Source: Richelia sp. CSU_2_1 (lineage in GTDB: Bacteria > Cyanobacteriota > Cyanobacteriia > Cyanobacteriales > Microcoleaceae). Taken from it: a stretch of 64,000 bases of DNA. Below, piece by piece: positions 583-52,125 of this stretch. Both the position numbers and the translations under genes were made by a program. The notes below the pieces were generated by a model. The model did not search any database and was not told where the DNA came from. It saw nothing but the letters and a program-made list of their open reading frames with translations. Each line of letters begins with the position of its first letter. The stretch's first letter is position 1. The stretch covers positions 1 to 64,000 of the forward strand of contig JAAUPF010000011.1 of the NCBI GenBank assembly GCA_012034575.1, read 5' to 3'.

Positions 583-987
583 CTATTGGCTAATAATTTT
601 ACGGATATCATCTTGGATTTGAACACCAGTTTTTCCTTGCCATCTTTCTTTCAACAGCTTCAGTCCAGCTTCGGCATATTGCATTACAATTTCCAAAACT
701 TCCCTGCTATCTTTGGGCTCTGGTTTACCATTGCGTTTTTGAACAGTATGGACACCCGCCTCAAGTGCAAGGCGGACATCTTCGTCTACAATGCCCATAT
801 AGACTAGATCCTGACGACCGCGAGGTAGAACTGGGGAAATCTCCACATTATTTTTGAGGGCGTAAGCTGCTGCAAAGACATAAGCATCTACCATACGACC
901 AAATGCGCCGTTATTTTTGAGTGTGTCGAGATAACCCTTTGCTTCTGGAGTCGGGCGAATTGTTGCTTGAGGGTCTAGATGTTTCAT
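583..987 (-). CDS. Dnd-associated protein 4-like small protein (cassette B)
   Basis: A 134-residue, mostly helical protein. Its first half contains GAFGRMVDAYVFAAAYALK, which matches the pattern seen at 7050-7520 (GPFQTYADVIAFAAALGNK) and recalls the 'DNA phosphorothioation-associated protein 4' family. Both copies then have a helical segment ending in a YAEAGLKLL/YANGGLEIL motif followed by a basic stretch, so I infer they are distant paralogues. The ATG overlaps the stop of the upstream ATPase gene by four bases (ATGA), so the two are translationally coupled, and it is the last gene of a four-gene operon. No catalytic motif is visible; a structural or DNA-binding role beside the ATPase is a guess. 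Confidence 0.6.
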   Translation of the reverse strand: MKHLDPQATIRPTPEAKGYLDTLKNNGAFGRMVDAYVFAAAYALKNNVEISPVLPRGRQDLVYMGIVDEDVRLALEAGVHTVQKRNGKPEPKDSREVLEIVMQYAEAGLKLLKERWQGKTGVQIQDDIRKIISQ

Positions 988-2915
988 TCTGCCACCTCCA
1001 CTGTGGAAGCGTCTTCAGTTGCACCCAGCCGTTTGATTTTGAGAATTCCCGTAACATGAGATCGCACACCTTGCAACAAATAATCTGGGAAATCGCGGTC
1101 TGTTGCTAGGACTATCACCTGTGAAGGAAGATCGGGAAGTGCATTAATCAGGTTTCTCTGATGGCCGGTATCGAGATGACCAAATGGGGTATCCATAATT
1201 AATGGTGCAGCCGTACCTGATTCTAGATTCAACCCAGCAATAAAGGCAAATGCAAGCGCTTCTTTTTCACCAGCACTTAAGGTTTCTGGATTGATAATTT
1301 CACCAATTGCATTTTTTATCCCTAGTGTATAGTCTTCCCTAATTTCTACTCCTACGTACTCCTGCGGCTTGTTGGTAACGCTGCGAAGTATCTGGGATGT
1401 ACGCTCTTCAATTGTTTTCTTGCGCTCTGTAATGCGCCACTCAATCAACTCTTTTGCTGCCTGATGAAGACCATGAGCCAGAGTAACTTGGCGAGCGAGA
1501 TTAGCCGTTTCTTCGTTGCAACTGGCTAATTTTTCCATCTCCCGACGCAGCTCGTTTTCTTGTTGCAACAAAACATCGCTCTCCCCCTTTAAACGATCTA
1601 TTTTCTGTTGGTGTTCTCTGACTTTTTGTTGGGCTTCACTAACTTTTTTCCAAATGTCTTCCGCTTCTTCCTGATTTAATCCCTGTGTTTCTTTTTTCAA
1701 GCGATCGGCTGCTTTCTCAATTTGATCCAGTTCTTCGCGCAAGCGATCGCGTCTCGACAAAAGTGAGTCAAAGTTGGGAGTTTGAAAGCGGGAAAGAGCC
1801 ACAAGTCGATCGCGCAAATCATCCTGCTGCAAGGCATCTTTAGTCTTATTGGCACCGCTCATTTCCAATCGTTGAAGTTCCTGAAGAATATATTGACGCG
1901 AACTTTCATCAATACAGCGACCGCACACACAGGCCTCCGATTCAAGTATTTCCCTAAGTTGGGAAATAGAACCTGAACGTCGTGCAGTAATCAGTGTAGT
2001 GCTTTGCATATCCTCTGCAACTCCGCGAACAAATTCAATCAGTAGTGGAATAGGCGCTTGTTCTAAACCTTTTTCAACCAGCTTTTTTGCTTCGCTCCAA
2101 TCTTCCTGTTTGCGTGATTTGTTGCTCTCCAAATTATTCATATCTTTTAACTTGTCGCGCAACTCTTCAATCTGACTTGCTCGTTCTTCCGTTCCCTTGC
2201 GAATTTCGATCGCAGCCTGATACTCTTCCTTTGCCTTTTGGAATTGCTCTTTTTTAATCTCGATCTTTTCTTGAACCTCTTCTAACTTGCTCGTTACTTG
2301 ATTGAGTGACTCGTTAATTGAGGCTGCCTCCTTCAGTCTTTTTTCAATTGAGCGCAGCGCGCGTTCTGAATCTTCACGCAGGTTTCTTAACTCAGGGATG
2401 CCCAGAATTCGCTCGATCGCATCCAGGGTTTCTTTCGTATGGAGGCGTTGGGCATAACGTTTTATTTCCACACCATCGAAAAAAAAGAAATCCTTACACG
2501 CTCTGGGCAAAAGTTCCTCAATGCGTTCGCGAGAGTCAGCTTGATGAATACCGTTTTTCTGGACAATCGCTTCACTTGTTTGAGCAGAAGCAGTTATTCC
2601 GCGCACCACTCTCTTAGCTGTACGACTAATGTCATAAATATCACCGTTGCGATCGAATTTAAGTTGTACACACAGTTCTAAATTAGGGTCTTTCTTTAAG
2701 ACAATACGATTAAAGCTATCAAGTAATGCCGAGGACTTAAGTTCATCACCCCCGTAGAGGCACCATTGGATAGCTTCTAGAATAGATGTCTTACCAAATC
2801 CATTCTGACCGAAAACTATCCAAATGTGCTGTTGGGTATCGAGGTTAAATTCGATTTCCTCATTTTGATAGCACTTCCAGTTTTTTAGACGGATACTTTT
2901 CAGCTTAAGTGCCAT
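984..2915 (-). CDS. DndD-like SMC/Rad50-type ATPase (cassette B)
   Basis: About 643 residues from the chosen ATG at 2915 (MALKLKSIRLKNW). An in-frame ATG three codons upstream is possible, but spacing from the weak TTGAGA site favours 2915. Visible features in order: an N-terminal ABC-type Walker A (FGQNGFGKTSILEAI), the FFFFDGVEIKR stretch typical of DndD/RecF-like ATPases, a long coiled coil broken near the middle by a Rad50-like cysteine turn (ACVCGRC), a second coiled coil, then the signature LSAGEKEAL and a Walker B/D-loop IMDTPFGHLD near the C terminus. This is the layout of DndD-type ATPases, which work on DNA with the sulfur-modification or restriction machinery. It lies between a small helical protein upstream and a Dnd-associated-4-like gene downstream. 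It could also be a generic AAA_23 defence ATPase. Confidence 0.75.
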   Translation of the reverse strand: MALKLKSIRLKNWKCYQNEEIEFNLDTQQHIWIVFGQNGFGKTSILEAIQWCLYGGDELKSSALLDSFNRIVLKKDPNLELCVQLKFDRNGDIYDISRTAKRVVRGITASAQTSEAIVQKNGIHQADSRERIEELLPRACKDFFFFDGVEIKRYAQRLHTKETLDAIERILGIPELRNLREDSERALRSIEKRLKEAASINESLNQVTSKLEEVQEKIEIKKEQFQKAKEEYQAAIEIRKGTEERASQIEELRDKLKDMNNLESNKSRKQEDWSEAKKLVEKGLEQAPIPLLIEFVRGVAEDMQSTTLITARRSGSISQLREILESEACVCGRCIDESSRQYILQELQRLEMSGANKTKDALQQDDLRDRLVALSRFQTPNFDSLLSRRDRLREELDQIEKAADRLKKETQGLNQEEAEDIWKKVSEAQQKVREHQQKIDRLKGESDVLLQQENELRREMEKLASCNEETANLARQVTLAHGLHQAAKELIEWRITERKKTIEERTSQILRSVTNKPQEYVGVEIREDYTLGIKNAIGEIINPETLSAGEKEALAFAFIAGLNLESGTAAPLIMDTPFGHLDTGHQRNLINALPDLPSQVIVLATDRDFPDYLLQGVRSHVTGILKIKRLGATEDASTVEVAE

Positions 2916-2931
2916 AATTATCATTCTCAAT

Positions 2932-3096
2932 TCATGAATTTGGTGAATCAGCGTACCGTTCAATCATTGTTATTAAAATAGGAACCATCCTGCGCTTTTG
3001 CAAGACAACCTTTTCTTTTTCCTGCTGAATAGCCTCTTTTAGTAATTGTTCCGGGATTTTATATTTAGCCACCAGTTCTTGCAGCTTTTCTTCCAT
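2932..3096 (-). CDS. Small helical protein, 'DNA modification system-associated' type (cassette B)
   Basis: A 54-residue protein beginning MEEKLQELVAKYKIPEQLL and ending MIERYADSPNS. It fills exactly the space between the helicase (stop 17 bases upstream) and the ATPase start, and has a clear ribosome site (AAGGAG, seven bases before the ATG). The core pattern, a hydrophobic helix with EKEKVVLQKRR, matches the C-terminal part of the 103-residue protein at 10835-11143 (EIEKDKLYMKSPR) and recalls small proteins annotated as associated with DNA modification systems. The conserved position directly before a DndD-like ATPase in both cassettes argues that it is a real gene and perhaps a subunit of that ATPase. 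No catalytic residues are evident. Confidence 0.65.
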   Translation of the reverse strand: MEEKLQELVAKYKIPEQLLKEAIQQEKEKVVLQKRRMVPILITMIERYADSPNS

Positions 3097-3112: not shown

Positions 3113-5242
3113 CTACATTAAATCTGAATGGGTAATTCCATAGGGTGCAAGCTCATCTACAAGTTTTGTGATGAGTGACATCCGATTGCGTGCAGCACGG
3201 GCAAACAGAATTACCCGTTTAATTTCAGATGCAATCGGTTCGACTAACGAATCACCTAGTGGAGGAACGACAACAACATCGACAACTTTTGCGAGCGCTT
3301 TTTTGGATGCAGCGCGGAGAACTCTGCCACGTCGCTGGATAAACTGCCGTTCAGATGTGTCGCTTGCCAGGATAATGGCAAGGTCAGCCGCTGGAATATC
3401 TATTCCTTCATCTAAGCATTTTACAGCAACGAGAGCATCAAAGTTGCCACGGGCAAATTCAGACAAGAGATGTTTGCGATTAACATCATCTGAGGAATAT
3501 CGTGCAATGCGGAAGCCGCGCTGGGCCAGTAGACGACTTACTTCTGTAGCTTGTGCTATATCAGCACAGTAAATCATGCCTGTGCGCGGTGGATAATCGC
3601 TGAGAATGCGGCCGAGTGCCGTGAGTTTTGATGCAGCAGATTTGATGATACGAGAGCGCTGAATAGTCAGACGTTTTGCTTGAGCGATCGCATCTTCTTC
3701 TTTATTATTGAGTAAACGACCTATCTTGGTTGTTAAGTTTGTAAATTTAGCATACTCACTACCCGTCAACGGCGTGATATATACCTGATAATCATACTCG
3801 CAAAGAATGCCCGCCTCGATCGCCTGTTCTAATGTAAATTCATAGACAACTCCGCCAAAATATTCCAGCACTAATTCTGTACCTTCTTCATCGTAAGCAC
3901 GCATAGGAGTAGCAGAAAGACCGAGGCGATACTGGAAGTCATCTCTGAGAATGCGTCTGTAGATAGCTGCACCTGTAGCGTGAACTTCATCAGCAATTAG
4001 CAAAGAACGAGGTGGTAAACCTCCAGCATCAGCAATTAGAGTAGTTACCTTGGATTTTGAAAATTCGCTGTAGCTGCCAACCACTATAATAGGAAGTAGT
4101 TCGCTAGACAACTCTCGGCTGTTTGCCAAACGGAGTTTCCGAAAAAGTGACTCCATCCAAAGTGTTGCGGTGCCTGTAGCAATCAATGGGGATCGAAATG
4201 TTGTCCTATTTGCCAGCTCGTCAACCCATTGCTGTACGATTTCGTTTGTTGGAGCGCCAATAACAATAACATTAATATTTTCAATACTGGCTGCACAAGC
4301 TAATCCTGTTATCGTCTTTCCGGCCCCAGTTGCCATAGATAAAATTCCACAATTATTAGCCGATTGCCAAGCGTTAAGTGCATCAACTTGCCGCAACCTT
4401 AGCTCTACTTTTAGAGAGTTATTCAATGGAAAGCTGGGATTTTGACACTCAGTTTGATTAACTCGATCGTTATTATGACCGTAACTACTGCCTTGTTCAG
4501 CTAACCTCTTAGATTTTCTGGTCTTGTTGATTTCAGGTTCGATCGCGACAGGTCGATCGGGACACAGGCGCAAGAGCTCTCGCGCCGCCGCTTCGGGAAA
4601 CTCCATTACCTCCACATTCGGCGTCTCGTTCTCCCACAACTTCTGAAAATTTTCGGCTTTTTTTAATGCCCGTTCTCTCACTCCCAGATGCCAGGAACAA
4701 AAGACATCAATACATTCAAAATTGTCAATTAAAGCAGTTGAACTTTCGTTAGCAGAACCTGTAAAAGCAATAATATTGTTTTCCCGATCGCCAAAGAGCC
4801 CTAATTTTTCGTGATAAATGCCTTGGCGGCGAATCTCTTTAGTAACAGCCAGTTTGATTTCGAGGATATTTTGGCTCAACAACCAAGCCAAACAAGCCAA
4901 GCGATCGCGCACAATGTCCTCAAATTCTTTATCTAATTCTTGCTGCAGTGCACTGACAATAACCTCTTCTTTTTGTCGCATTCCTTGCTCGATAGCCTCT
5001 GCATCCGTTTCCGACAAATAAGGAGAAGCTACTAACTGCATCTTGCCGCCAACTCGAATCAATGCAGTCAATCCTTTGGCGGCGGCGGCCATTGAAGTGC
5101 TGGAAAAAAAACCTACAGCTCGCTTGTAGACTGTAGCTTTTTCCAAACAAGGAATGTAAAATTCTTGGATTAGATCGCAGCGATCGCTCCGGTACTCATC
5201 TTGAATCGCTAAATCTCTCAAGCTCAACGCCGCACCCCCCAA
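3113..5242 (-). CDS. PLD-like nuclease / SF2 DEAD-DEAH helicase fusion (cassette B)
   Basis: 709 residues. The N-terminal ~200 form a phospholipase-D-like domain with one HxK...D type motif (YHEKLGLFGD) followed by FTGSANES, the arrangement of PLD-family nucleases. After a charged linker (~230-275) comes a superfamily-2 helicase with Walker A MATGAGKT, DEVH box (LIADEVHATG), motif III SATP, and motif VI QFIQRRGRVLRA near residue 615. The helicase half resembles the stand-alone helicase at 11414-12817 (same SATP, RCLDEG/KCLDEG and QFIQRRGR blocks), a family annotated as restriction enzyme of phosphorothioation systems. Inference: a DNA-cleaving and unwinding effector. No ATG lies near the N terminus; a TTG at 5242 or just inside it must serve. 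First gene of the cassette B operon. Confidence 0.8.
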   Translation of the reverse strand: MGGAALSLRDLAIQDEYRSDRCDLIQEFYIPCLEKATVYKRAVGFFSSTSMAAAAKGLTALIRVGGKMQLVASPYLSETDAEAIEQGMRQKEEVIVSALQQELDKEFEDIVRDRLACLAWLLSQNILEIKLAVTKEIRRQGIYHEKLGLFGDRENNIIAFTGSANESSTALIDNFECIDVFCSWHLGVRERALKKAENFQKLWENETPNVEVMEFPEAAARELLRLCPDRPVAIEPEINKTRKSKRLAEQGSSYGHNNDRVNQTECQNPSFPLNNSLKVELRLRQVDALNAWQSANNCGILSMATGAGKTITGLACAASIENINVIVIGAPTNEIVQQWVDELANRTTFRSPLIATGTATLWMESLFRKLRLANSRELSSELLPIIVVGSYSEFSKSKVTTLIADAGGLPPRSLLIADEVHATGAAIYRRILRDDFQYRLGLSATPMRAYDEEGTELVLEYFGGVVYEFTLEQAIEAGILCEYDYQVYITPLTGSEYAKFTNLTTKIGRLLNNKEEDAIAQAKRLTIQRSRIIKSAASKLTALGRILSDYPPRTGMIYCADIAQATEVSRLLAQRGFRIARYSSDDVNRKHLLSEFARGNFDALVAVKCLDEGIDIPAADLAIILASDTSERQFIQRRGRVLRAASKKALAKVVDVVVVPPLGDSLVEPIASEIKRVILFARAARNRMSLITKLVDELAPYGITHSDLM

Positions 5243-7049: not shown

Positions 7050-7520
7050 TCAAAATAAGAACTTGCTCAAGTCGAATTCTTCATTCGATCGCTCTCGATC
7101 GTCCCTTTCTGCTATTAGAAATAACAACAGTCGATCGGTATAATCCGCTGCACCACGAAACTCTTCTCGCAATATTTCTAGACCGCCATTAGCATATTCT
7201 TCAAAAATTTGCAACCTTTTTGTCTCTAATTCTCCGTCAAGATGGGAGAGAATTTGCGGATTTTTGGTTTCGGCGATCGCAATTAATTTAATAGCTAGAT
7301 CGTAACCTCTAGATACAAAAATATCAACATCTATGGAACCGGGTTCTCGTTTAGAAATTTCCCCCAAGGGCGATCGTTTTTTGCGCTTATTTCCCAGGGC
7401 GGCGGCAAAGGCTATGACATCGGCGTAAGTTTGGAAAGGCCCGCTTTTGTTATCTGATAAAGTTAGGGATTTAACTAACTCGGCTTTATCTTTGGCAATT
7501 CTAATTCTGTTAGAACTCAT
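7050..7520 (-). CDS. DNA phosphorothioation-associated protein 4 (cassette A)
   Basis: 156 residues. The opening, RIRIAKDKAELVKSLT, followed by GPFQTYADVIAFAAALGNKR, is what I recognise as the dnd system-associated protein 4 family. Later parts include an acidic helix (YANGGLEILREEFRG) and a hydrophobic LLLFLIAE segment. The family is found next to dnd genes in many cyanobacteria but has no assigned activity that I know of. It is the presumed paralogue of the 134-residue gene at 583-987. It stands apart from the cassette A ATPase by two inserted genes (Uma2 nuclease and NTP pyrophosphohydrolase) and a repeat-filled spacer. Confidence 0.75.
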   Translation of the reverse strand: MSSNRIRIAKDKAELVKSLTLSDNKSGPFQTYADVIAFAAALGNKRKKRSPLGEISKREPGSIDVDIFVSRGYDLAIKLIAIAETKNPQILSHLDGELETKRLQIFEEYANGGLEILREEFRGAADYTDRLLLFLIAERDDRERSNEEFDLSKFLF

Positions 7521-7946: not shown

Positions 7947-8603
7947 TCAATCTTGACTAAAAGTTTGAATCAACCAGCGATTAATTTCTCCGTCATTTTG
8001 AGTTTGACTTCGAGTCAAAGCTTCTTGAACTACAGCTATCTCCAAACCAGGTAACACGCGGGATTGTTGAATTCTACCACTACCTCCATTATTAATTGCA
8101 AAGGCAAAAACTTCCCGCGCGTTAGCACGTTCCACCCAATATTCACTTATTCCTGCACCTTCATACAACAAACGCTTTGTACCCAAATCATCATTAAAAG
8201 AAGATGCTCCAATTTCAATTATCAAATTTGGCGGATCGTATTCATTCAAATTAACAGGTGAATTGCTGTCGTCGGGAGGTACTCTCAAACCCGAACCAAT
8301 GTAGTAAGCTAAATCGGGTTGAAATTCTCGAATACCTGATTTGCGAAAACTGGTATTAGTAAATTGAACTACTGGAATATTTCGCAAAGTGGCAAACAAA
8401 ATAACTACATAAATCATAATTGAATTTTGACGCCCGTGAGATGGTCCTACTGGTGACATTTCAACCCTCATTTGTTCTTCGTAATAATAGAAATTGCCTT
8501 TTTCCCAAGCTAAATCCTCAGAGAAATCTAGAAATTCTTCCCATGTTGCCTTTACCCAAACATCCGTTTCCAAAAACTGCGTAATTGCCGAATTAGAAGC
8601 CAT
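7947..8603 (-). CDS. Uma2-family PD-(D/E)XK endonuclease
   Basis: 218 residues of the Uma2 (formerly DUF820) family, extremely expanded in cyanobacteria. Visible landmarks: SPVGPSHGRQN, a FQPDLAYY strand with the first acidic residue, PPNLIIEIGASS with the second, and the closing TKRLLYEGAGISEYWV. The usual family motif is EVLSPST where this has EIGASSF. The ATG overlaps the end of the upstream ATPase gene by 11 bases, so it is probably translated with it. Biological targets of Uma2 proteins are poorly known. Coupling to a DndD-like ATPase suggests recruitment to the defence cassette, but Uma2 genes are so common that chance placement is possible. Confidence 0.85.
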   Translation of the reverse strand: MASNSAITQFLETDVWVKATWEEFLDFSEDLAWEKGNFYYYEEQMRVEMSPVGPSHGRQNSIMIYVVILFATLRNIPVVQFTNTSFRKSGIREFQPDLAYYIGSGLRVPPDDSNSPVNLNEYDPPNLIIEIGASSFNDDLGTKRLLYEGAGISEYWVERANAREVFAFAINNGGSGRIQQSRVLPGLEIAVVQEALTRSQTQNDGEINRWLIQTFSQD

Positions 8604-10657
8604 AATCCACCTCTACAATCTCTGTATATTCAAATTCATTCGGGCTGCGCTTAACTAAAGGATAGCGCGAACCGCCAAGTTCGATCGCATCTTCTTCGCA
8701 ATCAGCTTTCGGAGAGTTGTACACCAGCACGTATTCTCTACCGATGCAGCTTTCCATCTCTCTAGCAACTTCTCCCCGCCACTGAGTTTTAGTTACCAAA
8801 ACTATTAATTGATTTGCCAACTTTGGTATTATTGGCAATTTGCTTGCGATAAATTTCGTCCAAACTGCCAAAAGGAGAATCCATCACGATCGGAAATGTA
8901 CTGCTATCGGGCCCCATCAAAGTATTCTTTTGACTCCACTCGCGCACGCCGTCAATAATTCCCCCGATAAATGACAAACTGAGAATTTGATTTTCCCCTG
9001 TAGAAGCAGCGACTAAAGCTTCTTTTCCCGAAGTAGTTTCTACTAATGTCAGTTCGTATTTATCGCTCAGCTTGGGAATGTAAGGAGTAAAAGAAATTTG
9101 ACTGAAAATATCCTGTACTCGCTTTTCTAACTGCGAACAAAACTGTTTTTCCAAGCGCGATCGCACTTCAATTAAACGGTCGATCGCATCTTGAGTTGCA
9201 GCAATCCGGCGTTGGGCTAATATTTGCCTTTCTTCATTCATTTGCTGCTTGTCAATTTGCTTGTTTAAAGCTGCAAACTGTACCTTCAAACTCTCTATTT
9301 GCTGCTGGTTAGAGCCAGTTTCTCTGTGCAAATCGCCAATTTTAATCTCAATTTCATCCAAATTTCTTTGCAAGCCGCTAACATCACCGTTAGGATAATT
9401 TCGCAGCTTATTATTAATATCTTCCAACTGATTTTCCATCCGAGCAAGTTCGGTACGATCGCGCCTAATATTGCTTTGCAGCCGATCGATTTCTTCCCAA
9501 AAATCAGCAACTTGCCTGTCTATTTCATTAACTCGATCGCTAATCCGAATTGTAGCTTCATCCACATCTCCAAATCCCGCTTTATCCAGCCATCCCCTAA
9601 CATTTTCGCAAGCTTCAGAATCCTCAATTAATTCTGTTCCGCAAATGCACTGCTGCTGGGCTAATAACTTTTCCAAAAACGGTTTCTGAATCCCAGATAG
9701 CAACTCACCTTTTTCTCGCAATCCTGCAAACACAGCTTGAAATTCAGCCGCAGCATCCGACAAAAACATCCCGTAGGCGCGCCCGGAAATCGCTTTTTTG
9801 ATAGCATCACCAGCCCTTACTAATTGTTCTTTAAATAAAGCTTTCTGTATTTCCAATTCATCGCGCAACTTTTGCAATTCTCCAGCACCGCTGAGTTCCA
9901 ATAAACTAGCGTTAATCGTTCTTTTGACTTCTCCTAAATTTGCCAACTCTTGCTCGATTTCAGCTTGTCTTTTCCCCAATTGTTCTAATTCTTTTTCGCA
10001 TTTATTTTTATCACCCAACAACTTTTTACTTTCCGCATCGCCGACTAAGATCAAATCGGTTTCTAAAGATTTTCTGGAATCATTTAAATGCCGGATCGAT
10101 CGATTCAACACCTCTACGCCCAGCAATTCCTTAGTAGCTTCAGCAATTTCTGCTCTTTTATCGTACCGAACAATTTGCTCGATGCGTTCCCCATCAAAAA
10201 AGAAATATTGATGCAAACTCTCCGGCAAAATCCGCCCGATAATATCCTCGGGATGCTGCGCCGTCGGCATCCAACGACCGTCATCTTTGGCTAAAGTTAG
10301 TGATAGTTCGCTGGGACTTTGTTCTACAGAATTTTCGGTTTTGTAAGCGCGGCAAACGCGATAAGCTTTGTAGCGATTGCTGTCATGTTCAAACACGATT
10401 TCCGCCCAACAAGCCACAGCTTTGCCAATTTCTGCTTCAGCAAGAGCGCGCTTATTTACTAATCGTTCTCCCGCTGCAAAAGCTGCACTAAATTTTTCGT
10501 AAAGTACCCAAGTAAAAGCATTCATCAAAGCAGTTTTTCCAGCACCATTATTGCCGTGAATCACTGTAGTGTTTTGTATCCCGCAGGCTAACTTAATTTC
10601 GGGAGTTTTGCCGTAAAACTGTCTAAAGTTACACAGAATAATTGAAATTAACCTCAT
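8593..10657 (-). CDS. DndD-like SMC/Rad50-type ATPase, frameshifted near C terminus (cassette A)
   Basis: About 688 residues if the break is repaired. Walker A is HGNNGAGKTALMNAF; then ESLHQYFFFDGERIEQ, the FFFDGE stretch characteristic of DndD-type ATPases; a coiled coil with a Rad50-like CICG turn near residue 335; a second coiled coil; the signature AASTGENQILSLSF; and Walker B IVMDSPFGSLDEIYRKQIA. The frame then ends after a short out-of-frame tail, while the expected continuation (IPKLANQLIVLVTKTQW...) is in the next frame down to 8593. The break is at about 8828-8833, where two bases appear missing (or one added). Given the many similar breaks in this window, a sequence error is as likely as a mutation. 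A 103-residue partner lies upstream; the Uma2 gene overlaps its end. Confidence 0.8.
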
Positions 10658-10834
10658 AGGAAAAGTTGATAGTTGACAGTTGACAGTTGACAGTTGACAG
10701 TCGAGAGTTGAGAGTTGAGAATTGAGAGTTGACAGTTAGGGAAATTATCTGCGTTTATCCGCGTTTATCTGCACTTATCTGCGGTTAACAGTTGACAGTC
10801 ACCTTCGAGAATCTTCTCACTGTCAAAGCGATTG
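10658..10834. repeat. Repeat-filled spacer (GTTGACA, GAGAGTT and GCGTTTATC types)
   Basis: Holds about four tandem GTTGACA heptamers, then GAGTCGAGAGTTGAGAG variants, then four copies of a TCTGCGTTTATC-like unit and GGTTAACAGTTGACAG. It is the reverse complement of the composite in the 7540-7632 spacer. No gene or promoter could be distinguished in it. Confidence 0.85.
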
Positions 10835-11143
10835 CTATACAACCGCTTCCTTAATAATTTTTAAAATGTCATCGCTGATGTAGCGGGGAGATTTCATGTA
10901 TAATTTATCTTTCTCTATTTCCAAGACTCGCTCGATAATTTGCCGCACTTCCGGCGGCGCGGTAGTAATCGGTTCTTGGATGCTAGTCAAATCTCGATCG
11001 ACTTGATAAGATGCGCGTTTTTCTGCTAAGATATCTGTGGATATATTGGGAATTGCATTGTTGCCGTATCTAAAAATCGGTGTTTCTTTGGCTATCTCAC
11101 GTGCGGTCGGATATTCCAGCCAATTTTCTAGGGAACTTTCCAT
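10835..11143 (-). CDS. Small 'DNA modification system-associated' protein with N-terminal extension (cassette A)
   Basis: 102 residues from the ATG at 11143 (a TTG precedes it directly). The C-terminal ~45 residues (PPEVRQIIERVLEIEKDKLY, then SPRYISDDILKII) match in pattern the 54-residue protein at 2932-3096. The N-terminal half (LENWLEYPTAREIAKETPIF) has no counterpart there. It precedes the DndD-like ATPase gene, as its relative does in cassette B. The ATG overlaps, as TGATG, the stop of a 29-codon open frame made of 12-base repeats, so its translation may depend on that leader. No enzymatic motif; a subunit or adaptor role is inferred from position only. Confidence 0.65.
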   Translation of the reverse strand: MESSLENWLEYPTAREIAKETPIFRYGNNAIPNISTDILAEKRASYQVDRDLTSIQEPITTAPPEVRQIIERVLEIEKDKLYMKSPRYISDDILKIIKEAVV

Positions 11144-11243
11144 CAAATTTTACCTCTCATTTTTTCAGATATTTTTTCAGACATTTTTTCAGACATTTTT
11201 TCAGGCATTTTTTCAGGCATTTTTTCAGGCATTTTTTCAGAAT
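11143..11243 (-). repeat. 12-bp minisatellite encoding an (M-P/S-E-K) leader ORF
   Basis: Read on the minus strand, ATG(C/T)CTGAAAAA is repeated six to seven times with small changes. The unit is 12 bases, so it keeps one frame: from the ATG at 11232 it encodes MPEK x3, MSEK x2, ISEK, then MRGKI and stops at TGA 11145-11143, overlapping the ATG of the next gene (TGATG). The 29-codon frame is preceded by an in-frame TAA. It may be a translated, copy-number-variable leader or simply an A-rich repeat before the ribosome site of the downstream gene. Several internal ATGs could act as starts. Confidence 0.6.
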
Positions 11244-11413
11244 CTTTTTAAGAATTTTTCAGTCTAGCAACTCACGCAAATCTAGAATATAGCAATTCTC
11301 AAGCAACTGAAGGCATATTACCAATTACTAATTACCAACTACCCAGAATAACTCATTTTCCAGAAAATTGCTAAAATTATCTATTCTCAACATAAACCCA
11401 ACCAGAACAAATG

Positions 11414-12817
11414 TCAAATATCTAACAGCCCGTAACGCTTTTGCAATTGCAACAATTTCACTCTAGCTTCCCCAGCATTGTCAGCTAAATCGGCAAATTC
11501 CAAGAAGCGTTTCAACTCTTTTCTGAGCAAATTGCGCTCGACTTCTAAGGTTTCCCTACCCAAATCGGGAGGTAAAACTATCATGTCAAATAAAGTCGCC
11601 CTTTCCTTTCCCGGATGCGGCCGCAAAATCCGCCCGCGACGCTGAATAAACTGGCGCGGATTGCTGCTGCTAGCTAAAATTACAGCATGGCGAATTGCGG
11701 GAATATCAACGCCTTCATCCAAACAGCGAATTGCTACCAAACCTTGCAATTCTCCCGTTTCAAATTGTTTGCGCAATTTTTCTCTTTCTGCTACAGAAGT
11801 CGCCGCCGTATAAGTGTTAATGCGATATCCCAATTCTGCACCCAATAACTTTGCAGTTTCTGTTAGCTGGCGGTGGTTGTGGCGGCGAGTTCCAGATTCG
11901 ATCGCGCCGTCACCGCAGTAGAATAAAGTATGCGTCGTATCGAGACGGCGAACCATCAAATCCCGCAAAGCATTTAACTTATTTGCCGCCGCCCCAATCA
12001 ACCGCGCCCGCTGCATTAATAAAGGCGTTAAAGCATCCTTATCTGCTACTTTTTCATCGCCCCACAACGCCCAACCAATCTTTTGAGTCAAGCGGGAATA
12101 TTTGCGAGTTTCAACTTCAGTCAATTCGACTAAAATCGGATAGTATAAATAATGGACTAATGCTTTTTGGCGGATGGCATCGGCTAAAGTAAGTTCCGGC
12201 TGCAAAACCGGGCCGAAATAATCTAAAATCGCCTCAGTTCCCTCTCCGTCAAAATGCCTTTCCGGCGTTGCGGAAAGGGCGAGACGCAATCCGATATTGC
12301 GCGGCAAACTTTGTTCCAAACGCGGCGCGCCCAAATTGTGAACTTCGTCTCCGACAATCAAAGTTTTTTCGGGAAAATAGCGCAGTTGCGATTGCAAACT
12401 CTCTGACATTAACGTAGCATTGGTAGTGATAATTGTCAGAAACGGTCGATCGCCCGCCAGGACTTCATACAAACTCGCAGCTAGTTTATTTTGCCAGCTC
12501 TGAGCGCGATCGAATGCTAAAATAGGTTGCAAACCAAATTTTTCCGACTCGCGCGCCCACTGATTTACCAAATGACAGTAAGGGCAAATTACCAGCAGAA
12601 CTTGCAGGTTAATTTTATGGTATAATTCAGTGGCGATCGCCAGTGCAGTAATCGTCTTGCCGCTACCCGTCGCCATTTTCAACGTACCGCGTCCCCGATG
12701 CGCAAACCAATTAGCAACCGCCTCTCGCTGGTACTGCCGCAATTGCAACGCTGGCGGCATTTTCGGAAAACCAAATTGCAAATTAGCGGATTGCTTCATA
12801 TCATTGCTTGATATCAT
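11414..12817 (-). CDS. SF2 helicase, phosphorothioation-system restriction enzyme type (cassette A)
   Basis: 467 residues from ATG 12817 (ATG 12799 is equally plausible; a TTG at 12874 is less so). The order is LRQYQREAVANWF (Q-motif region), Walker A MATGSGKT near residue 50, a CPYCH segment, DEVH box VGDEVHNLG, SATPERHFDGEG, then the second RecA domain with RCLDEGVDIPA and motif VI QFIQRRGRILRPH. I recognise this compact DEAD/DEAH form as the family annotated 'DNA phosphorothioation system restriction enzyme', thought to supply the restriction side of Dnd loci in cyanobacteria. No nuclease domain is obvious, so cleavage activity is not shown by the sequence. It heads cassette A and has a paralogue fused to a PLD domain at 3113-5242. 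Confidence 0.8.
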   Translation of the reverse strand: MISSNDMKQSANLQFGFPKMPPALQLRQYQREAVANWFAHRGRGTLKMATGSGKTITALAIATELYHKINLQVLLVICPYCHLVNQWARESEKFGLQPILAFDRAQSWQNKLAASLYEVLAGDRPFLTIITTNATLMSESLQSQLRYFPEKTLIVGDEVHNLGAPRLEQSLPRNIGLRLALSATPERHFDGEGTEAILDYFGPVLQPELTLADAIRQKALVHYLYYPILVELTEVETRKYSRLTQKIGWALWGDEKVADKDALTPLLMQRARLIGAAANKLNALRDLMVRRLDTTHTLFYCGDGAIESGTRRHNHRQLTETAKLLGAELGYRINTYTAATSVAEREKLRKQFETGELQGLVAIRCLDEGVDIPAIRHAVILASSSNPRQFIQRRGRILRPHPGKERATLFDMIVLPPDLGRETLEVERNLLRKELKRFLEFADLADNAGEARVKLLQLQKRYGLLDI

Positions 12818-50890: not shown

Positions 50891-52125
50891 TCAACTGACT
50901 TTTTGCACTGGCAAACTGCCCGGTCTTACGTTCAAAATAACTATTTTTCCGTTGCGGTTGATTTCCATTTGCAAATTGCCACCTACTTTAGCATTTTGCA
51001 CTAATTCCTGAACGGCTTCCGACTGAATTATCGGGCGATTGTTGATTTTTTGGATCGCATCTCCAGGGCGCAAACCGGCGGCGGCGGCGGGAGAATTGGG
51101 AACAACGCTCACGATCGCAACTCCCCGATCGACTGCAACTCGCACGCTGCTGTTAGGATTGTTATTAATTTGATTTTTCACATCCGGCGTCAGCGTCGCC
51201 ATTTCAATACCCAAATAGGCGTGTTCGGCTTTTCCCGTCGAAATCAATTCCTTAGCAATTTGTTGGGCCGTTTTAATGGGAATTGCAAAGCCCAATCCTT
51301 GAGCTCCTTGAATAATTGCTGTATTCATCCCGATTACTTGGCCCGAAGCATTCAGTAGCGGGCCTCCAGAATTCCCCGGATTGATCGCCGCATCTGTTTG
51401 AATGAAACCCACTCGCTTGTCGGGAACGCCCACATCCGAACTCGATCGCCCTGTAGCGCTGATAATTCCCGCCGTTACCGAATTGTCCAAGCCTAAAGGA
51501 TTCCCGATCGCGATCGCCCATTCCCCAGATAGCAACTTGTCCGAATCTCCGATCGCAGCTACCGGTAAGTCGTTCGCCTCAATCTTCACCACAGCGACAT
51601 CCGTCACCCCATCTTCTCCCAACACCCGGCCCTGAAAGCTGCGACCGTCCCGCAGAGTTACATTTACCGTATCTGCCCCGTCAACAACGTGAGCGTTAGT
51701 GAGAATCAGTCCGTCGGAGCCGATCGCAAAACCCGAACCCGTGCCCCGTTCCAACCCTCCCCTACCGGAATTCGGATCTAGTCCAAAAAATCCCGCGGCG
51801 ACGCGCTATTTCCCGGCTTCACCCGTCGCGAAGAGTCGATGCGAACGACAGCCGGGCCGACTTTTTCCACCGCAGCCACAATAAAATTCACGTTCCCCCC
51901 ACCGCCGCCAAAAGAATTCGGCAGCGGCGCTTTCGCAGCTTGAGGCTTGGCCGGCACGGGCAGTTGCAATTTCGGTTGCGGCGTTTTTTCCTTAGATTCG
52001 CTGGAATTTGAAGGTAATTGAGAAACCATCAGGCGATCGCCCAACATTGCCGCTCCCGCTCCCATTACCAGCAGCAAGACGTAAATTGCCGGTTGCTTCC
52101 AAAATTTGCCAGTTGTACTCTTCAT
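50891..52125 (-). CDS. HtrA/Deg-family serine protease with PDZ domain, one frame break
   Basis: About 411 residues when joined. A membrane anchor sits at 12-33 ([20 protein letters not shown]), followed by a Pro/Lys-rich linker. The trypsin-like domain has LTNAHVVD (His), DVAVVKIEA (Asp) and [12 protein letters not shown] (Ser). One PDZ domain ([19 protein letters not shown]) follows. It is a periplasmic or thylakoid-lumen quality-control protease; three paralogues (HtrA, HhoA, HhoB) are usual in cyanobacteria and I cannot say which this is. The break is at an A6 run (51785-51790, plus strand). One more base turns PRDFLD-stop into [11 protein letters not shown] and joins the two parts. The TGA stop lies in the adjacent CAACTGT repeat. 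Confidence 0.9.

Follow-up and report, generated by a model that had tools for sequence, protein, structure and literature searches.

The 54-residue open frame between a helicase gene and an ATPase gene near the start of the 64,000-nucleotide stretch of Richelia sp. CSU_2_1 DNA analysed here (hereafter the window) is almost certainly pbeB, which encodes the small subunit of the PbeABCD (CxC ABC-ATPase) antiviral cassette, and the 102-residue gene in front of the other ATPase of the window is pbeB of a second, cyanobacterial type. PbeB as such is already known; the window proteins are new, divergent members. The new observations are that four types of PbeB, from cyanobacteria, haloarchaea and other bacteria, appear at the sequence level to share one core, that type-2 PbeB tracks its ATPase, and that the core-only form of this protein is the commoner one. 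The smallest, essential part of PbeABCD, previously described as mostly disordered, thus gains a definite candidate partner, the ATPase over the helicase.

The pbeABCD genes were named by Xiong et al. 2019 (PMC6459918). According to that paper, deletion of pbeB completely abolished protection, pbeB is too small for annotation in some genomes, and 320 of the 553 PbeAC are solitary. PT-modification genes are a frequent, non-obligate genome partner of PbeABCD. A paper of 2024 in NAR (PMC10853773) describes the small protein (SP) of CxC ABC-ATPase systems as rapidly evolving and mostly disordered, equates it with PbeB and regards it as a possible negative regulator. In a 2025 review (PMC12707154), the section on PbeABCD calls its restriction event obscure. 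A search covering part of the literature on PbeABCD found no structure of PbeB or of its complex.

Two cassettes and their small genes

Two PbeABCD-type cassettes are located on the minus strand in the first 13 kb of the window (Table 1), and PT-modification genes are present elsewhere in the genome in the form of two dndC genes over the cut-off, on contigs C3 and C86. PADLOC assigns both helicases to PbeA as best model and both ATPases to PbeC, ahead of DndD. Accordingly, the statement of the preliminary description that a small gene occupies a conserved place before each DndD-like ATPase stands with regard to the position, whereas the label of the ATPase has to be corrected, given that PADLOC ranks PbeC over DndD.

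Table 1. Genes of the two PbeABCD-type cassettes in the window
Feature	Positions	Strand	Description
PbeD-like small protein, copy 1	583..987	-	134 aa, ATG overlapping PbeC stop
PbeC copy 1	984..2915	-	Rad50/DndD-like ABC ATPase, CVCGRC hook
pbeB copy 1	2932..3096	-	54 codons, ATG start, AAGGAG 5 nt upstream of ATG
PbeA copy 1	3113..5227	-	PLD/HKD-like N-terminus and SF2 (ResIII) helicase
PbeD copy 2 (dnd_assoc_4)	7050..7520	-	TIGR04062 E=1.3e-58, above cut-off
PbeC copy 2	8789..10657	-	622 aa; PADLOC PbeC E=8.8e-295
pbeB copy 2	10835..11143	-	ATG, 102 aa: N-terminal extension of ~55 residues and conserved core
PbeA copy 2	11414..12805	-	Helicase; TIGR04095 6.8e-197, above cut-off; PADLOC PbeA

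In the first cassette, PbeA is recognized by PADLOC (PbeA, E=1.7e-212), by Pfam (ResIII and Helicase_C, with a weak PLDc_2 match, 0.0024) and, under the cut-off of the model, by TIGR04095 (3.5e-99); its frame is listed from TTG 5242, and the start position is provisional. The ATPase of this cassette (PADLOC PbeC, E=3.5e-254; AAA_23) has Rad50 proteins as its best PDB sequence matches, and the CVCGRC hook of PbeC is invariant across the three aligned proteins. The PbeD-like protein matches TIGR04062 weakly (0.0024), and its gene is present after PbeC in relatives. A contig-edge frame at 3-554 on the plus strand, which faces the PbeD-like gene, shows a weak DGQHR likeness (TIGR03187, E=0.035, far under the cut-off).

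In the second cassette, a domain search of PbeA detected the helicase only and no HKD domain; the frame is listed from TTG 12874, again with a provisional start. Many cyanobacteria and six haloarchaeal loci (L247-L252) match this type of PbeA over the helicase part only, and long frames are found in L082 and L084; the nuclease part of copy-2 type PbeA may have been lost or replaced. Compared with a 688-residue relative, PbeC copy 2 is frame-broken near the C-terminus, with two frames at about 8831-10657 and 8596-8865; the pieces (8596-10657) correspond to residues 1-609 and 602-688 of the relative, with 80% and 86% identity, respectively, so that the gene either was recently broken or reflects an assembly error. 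The PbeD gene of this cassette is separated from PbeC by other frames. The 177 bases between PbeB2 and PbeC2 (10658-10834) contain short GTTGACA-type repeats, and repeated TTTTTTCAGGCA-like units lie directly upstream of pbeB copy 2 (11150-11260).

The first pbeB gene fills the gap between helicase and ATPase, as the preliminary description had stated: 16 bases separate it from the PbeA frame (end 3113) and another 16 from the ATG of PbeC (2915), a start that agrees with homologues, and its start region on the minus strand reads AATAAAGGAGAGCAAATG, with a 5-nt spacing between AAGGAG and ATG. At E<=1, this protein has no match within its genome other than itself. No stop interrupts the frame in any of the 16 other genomes in which the copy-1 type of PbeC was found, namely 12 of the 15 loci of one search (L032-L043) and four further genomes (L077-L080); a type-1 PbeB search gave no match in the three remaining, distant PbeC-type loci (L044-L046). 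In L080, ~400 nt lie between PbeB and PbeC, and in L043 PbeC extends past the contig end. Among the pairs listed, which include only those that are >60% identical, pN is ~0.1-0.4 of pS for this type of pbeB; between the window and Laspinema (L035), for example, pS is 0.59 and pN is 0.19. Stops or non-synonymous drift in related genomes had been named as what would discredit the gene; the frame is open throughout, with pN well below pS. Judged by these sequence comparisons, the 54-residue frame is a real conserved gene, beyond chance. That it is a chance open frame without function might be suggested by its shortness and by the chance-level pairwise similarity of the two window proteins, but the conserved frame, the predominance of synonymous changes and the co-occurrence with PbeC leave this explanation with a negligible probability.

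A type-1 profile search of 377 genomes of the phylum yielded 12 matches at E<=0.001, two of which (G295, G314) are weak, partial and inside long frames. G276:C95 carries, around 51074-51822, what remains of a PbeA gene interrupted by several stops; an intact type-1 PbeB frame lies ~100 bases away. The contig of L041, labelled Candidatus Gracilibacteria, carries a type-1 cassette so close to that of Hydrococcus (L040) that a binning error is probable.

In seven assemblies, all of them drafts (L032, L033, L034, L036, L038, L041 and L042), the copy-1 kind of PbeA was not found; each of these genomes has the helicase-only PbeA type, and L034 also encodes a full-length PbeA-like protein (32%). PbeB is open in all seven, whereas PbeC is intact in L032, L036 and L038 and frame-broken in L033, L034, L041 and L042. 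Across the 16 type-1 relatives, PbeC is intact in 11, broken in four and cut by a contig end in one; of the nine outside this group of seven, eight have an intact PbeC, and in L043 the gene is truncated by the contig end. Because PbeC is broken in four of the seven, the cassettes that lack PbeA may be decaying rather than working B-C-D units, that is, loss of PbeA may be accompanied by decay of the cassette; and as broken PbeC is confined to genomes without a matching PbeA, the notion that PbeA is freely dispensable is weakened.

A shared core in four types of PbeB

Recognition of the window proteins by existing models is poor: neither matches a PADLOC or Pfam model at E<=0.1, NCBIfam yields only PhnF for copy 1 (0.0059, below the cut-off) and no match for copy 2, and the best match in PHROGs is only at 0.033. 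Among the Pfam families of small proteins, PF20306 (Sp-DndD) recognizes, at E<=1, 11 of the 12 sequences in the type-1 alignment, with 1.7e-4 as the best value; two type-1 proteins from haloarchaea exceed its cut-off (8e-8 and 2.5e-10), whereas the window type-1 protein has no match to it at E<=1. PF20304 (Sp-CxC) matches neither window protein nor the scanned members of alignments A3 and A4, and none of the 15 type-2 members and four type-3 proteins scanned matches a Pfam small-protein model. The PhnF match of the window protein (GntR family), together with HTH_60 (0.055) and GntR (0.11) matches in single type-1 relatives, all in the first part of type 1, could be taken to indicate a small, HTH-like DNA-binding regulator of the operon. 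However, all these matches are below the cut-offs, the shared core is downstream of the matched part, and the predicted long second helix (residues 16-50) is unlike an HTH, which makes such a regulator very improbable.

The PbeB variants were assigned to types by eye and by profile matches. Type 1 includes the copy-1-like proteins and two haloarchaeal ones; type 2 includes the copy-2-like proteins along with proteins from haloarchaea and an Arthrobacter plasmid; type 3 comes from haloarchaea and Chlorohelix; and type 4 comes from four ~2 Mb genomes of the same phylum, probably non-photosynthetic relatives of cyanobacteria, and from Ruegeria. The test of the core covered these four types, with the plasmid variants from Priestia, Halorubrum, both Rhizobium, Sphingomonadaceae, Aurantiacibacter, Lactiplantibacillus and Leuconostoc kept outside it. 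Despite the strong sequence divergence between the types, profile comparison brings out a common core of ~35 residues, in register, that consists of a hydrophobic helix, E[KR]xx[hydrophobic], a short loop and a second hydrophobic stretch. All six pairs of types align in a single register around the E-[KR] motif, with E values of 1.8e-6 for types 2 and 3, 2.8e-4 for types 1 and 2, and 0.002-0.012 for the remaining pairs; five of the six pairs beat all 150 column-shuffled controls, and the score of types 1 and 4 was reached by two of the 150.

The match between the EKEKVVLQKRR core of the 54-residue protein and the C-terminal half of the 102-residue one, noted in the preliminary description, is borne out in its register (EKEKV/EKDKL) but not as a pairwise similarity, which is at chance level: 200 of 2000 shuffled versions of the short protein do equally well. 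A direct pairwise case for homology between the window proteins was accordingly abandoned, and homology was assessed by profile comparison alone. The profiles of the two families align with a score of 21.4, which none of the 150 column shuffles reaches (maximum 16.9; reversed control 11.4), whereas a smaller profile comparison is weak (probability 5%, E 0.0076). Alignment of the small proteins with their homologues, which had been suggested as a check, therefore supports homology at the profile level only. The core alignment unites PbeB subgroups that are kept apart in databases and flags a large cyanobacterial type-2 group for which the Pfam scan turned up no model.

In 62 of the 82 relatives of the long protein, the longest Met-started frame has <=65 residues, and an AEKRSSY-like motif, which marks the long N-terminal extension, is present in 15 of the 82 type-2 frames; beyond these 15, G255 appears by eye to have a similar extension. 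Proteins that consist of the core only outnumber the long ones, the extension being an addition in part of the family. The idea that the short form represents the minimal domain gains support from these counts, and the 54-residue protein comes close to such a unit. The further expectation that such genes are easily missed in annotation failed in the plasmid sample: a small CDS before the ATPase is annotated in all 16 annotated stretches (18 were chosen from the 72 records with a PbeA match, and two have no annotation in the stretch). Three of the plasmid loci are exceptional in arrangement, with a transposase between the small CDS and the ATPase (L201), a transposase preceding the small CDS (L206) or an ATPase that is a short fragment (L203). 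The protein in the PbeB position of the Priestia plasmid (L208:6333-6500) weakly matches T4 RIIA.1 (PF24210, E=1.4e-4, below the cut-off; phrog_1683, E=1.6e-4), possibly by chance or possibly as a phage relative.

In a tree of PbeC N-termini with 59 rows (57 of the 59 labelled loci and two window rows), the seven PbeB groups require 9 label changes compared to a mean of 32.9 for shuffled labels, indicating that the PbeB type follows the PbeC clade, although haloarchaeal type 1 is placed apart from cyanobacterial type 1, and types 1, 2 and 4 need two changes each. A search of 145 genomes from one haloarchaeal class matched PbeA at E<=1e-60 in 19, and in 17 of these 19 loci, inspected by eye, PbeA is followed by a small frame of ~50-80 residues and then by an ATPase-like frame; in the other two (L247 and L249), neither frame was seen within 1.5 kb. 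We consider it possible, but would not yet favour the view, that bacterial and archaeal CxC ABC-ATPases widely possess PbeB as a folded subunit, a single ancient helical clip, such that PbeB-PbeC(-PbeD) is the defining unit and PbeA an exchangeable effector. If true, this would put one clip behind unrelated-looking PbeB types for which databases have separate models or none.

Association of type-2 PbeB with the ATPase

PbeC2 was detected in 92 of 377 genomes (E<=1e-60) and PbeB2 in 92 of 377 (E<=1e-4), with both found in 91; the two 377-genome samples are of equal size with matching lists, their sameness being unproven, and the PbeB2 profile, which was built mostly from PbeC neighbours, favours finding such neighbours. 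The two genomes that break the pattern are G111, whose PbeC2 is a fragment containing a stop, and G309, whose PbeB2 match is weak and partial. Within 2 kb of PbeB2, there are both PbeC2 and PbeA2 in 40 genomes, PbeC2 only in 44, PbeA2 only in five and neither in two; in 27 of the 92 genomes with PbeC2, the assembly places PbeA2 on a separate contig, and because certain of these contigs (e.g. in G303) end just upstream, 44 is an upper figure. After exclusion of the window and G111, 90 PbeC2 loci were examined, in 82 of which the stretch covered includes a same-strand PbeB frame upstream of PbeC, and in 69 of these 82 the stop of the upstream frame overlaps the PbeC start as ATGA. Compared with this overlap, the 177-base gap in the window implies that the coupling seems to be lost in copy 2.

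These data bear on the possibility that PbeB serves the helicase PbeA as an adaptor, its place before PbeC being merely operon order. PbeB2 lies no more than ~500 bases from PbeA2 in five genomes, four of them of one genus, in which PbeC2 is 16-132 kb distant or belongs to a different contig, as this explanation would have it. Conversely, in 20 genomes a single contig carries PbeA2 and PbeC2 separated by at least 16 kb; PbeB2 accompanies PbeC2 in 15 of them, PbeA2 in four and neither gene in one, although these genomes are related and the counts do not represent independent events. Moreover, G104 and G146 have PbeA2 with no PbeC2 match and no PbeB2 match, whereas G366 contains PbeC2 (with a stop) and PbeB2 and has no PbeA2 match; a third genome with PbeA2 and no PbeC2 match, G420, is absent from the later samples. 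On this evidence, a PbeA adaptor is quite improbable: both the presence and the position of type-2 PbeB follow PbeC. On a Rhizobium plasmid, the gene order is B-C-D-A, and the small protein is a sub-threshold PF20306 match. In an unsystematic look, no fusions of PbeB to PbeA or PbeC were noticed.

Predicted structure, possible role and known systems

For the 54-residue protein, AlphaFold2 (12 sequences) predicts helices at residues 2-12 and 16-50 with a mean pLDDT of 88 and a pTM of 0.51, so type-1 PbeB is predicted to consist of ordered helices. The 102-residue PbeB2 modelled alone reaches a pLDDT of only 49, with helices 64-84 and 91-101 in the core; because of this difference, the description of the protein as mostly disordered is contradicted for type 1 only. 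Searches of the PDB for a relative with the type-1 profile gave TM0613 (1o3u; E 0.0042, residues 5-30) and one further match at 0.25, and with the type-2 profile CdbA as the best match (0.47), none of which was accepted as a relative; a ribbon-helix-helix reading based on CdbA was dropped because no strand is predicted. Foldseek against the PDB returned a single match (E 9.1), and neither the sequence nor the fold searches of the PDB produced a partner structure or a solved Rad50/SMC-binding segment. The comparison of many genomes suggests that PbeB is a short, helical companion of the adjacent ATPase and not a loose, unstructured add-on.

The alternative proposed in the 2024 paper (PMC10853773) is that PbeB is a mostly disordered negative regulator that restrains the nuclease and is released by a viral trigger. 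The strong divergence between the types and the low pLDDT of PbeB2 alone agree with this proposal, as does the broken PbeC in four of the seven genomes without a matching PbeA, which implies that the parts depend on the nuclease-helicase. Yet the core is conserved and type 1 is predicted to be helical, and, if PbeB were a brake, its removal should set the system free, whereas the reported effect of deleting pbeB is loss of protection (PMC6459918), which makes a negative regulator the less likely reading; we regard it as unlikely.

Under the reading that we prefer, and that as a complete mechanism we hold to be somewhat probable, PbeB is a helical subunit of PbeC, a clip on the Rad50-like ATPase that bridges to PbeA. 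PbeB would be a dedicated subunit of PbeC, probably made at levels matching those of the ATPase through translational coupling; its helices would dock onto PbeC, the coiled-coil base or the ATPase head being the most likely sites, and would help to couple DNA scanning by PbeC-PbeD to the helicase/nuclease PbeA. Short helical partners of Rad50/SMC-type ATPases are represented by the Rad50-binding helices of Mre11 and by kleisin. In its action PbeB would resemble these Mre11 helices or a kleisin in minimal form, a functional analogy only, without a sequence or fold match.

The closest described counterpart is PbeB of Haloterrigena jeotgali A29 (PMC6459918), which, in the account of that cassette, is likewise a small gene in a four-gene cassette with a PbeA helicase and a PbeC ATPase; the protein has 66 residues and is likened to those of the window by position, size and neighbouring families, not by sequence, and the window differs in being cyanobacterial and in holding two cassettes. 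By its neighbourhood, the window gene also equals the SP of CxC ABC-ATPase systems as treated in PMC10853773; that protein is described there as mostly disordered, whereas in the window proteins the core is conserved and type 1 is predicted to be helical.
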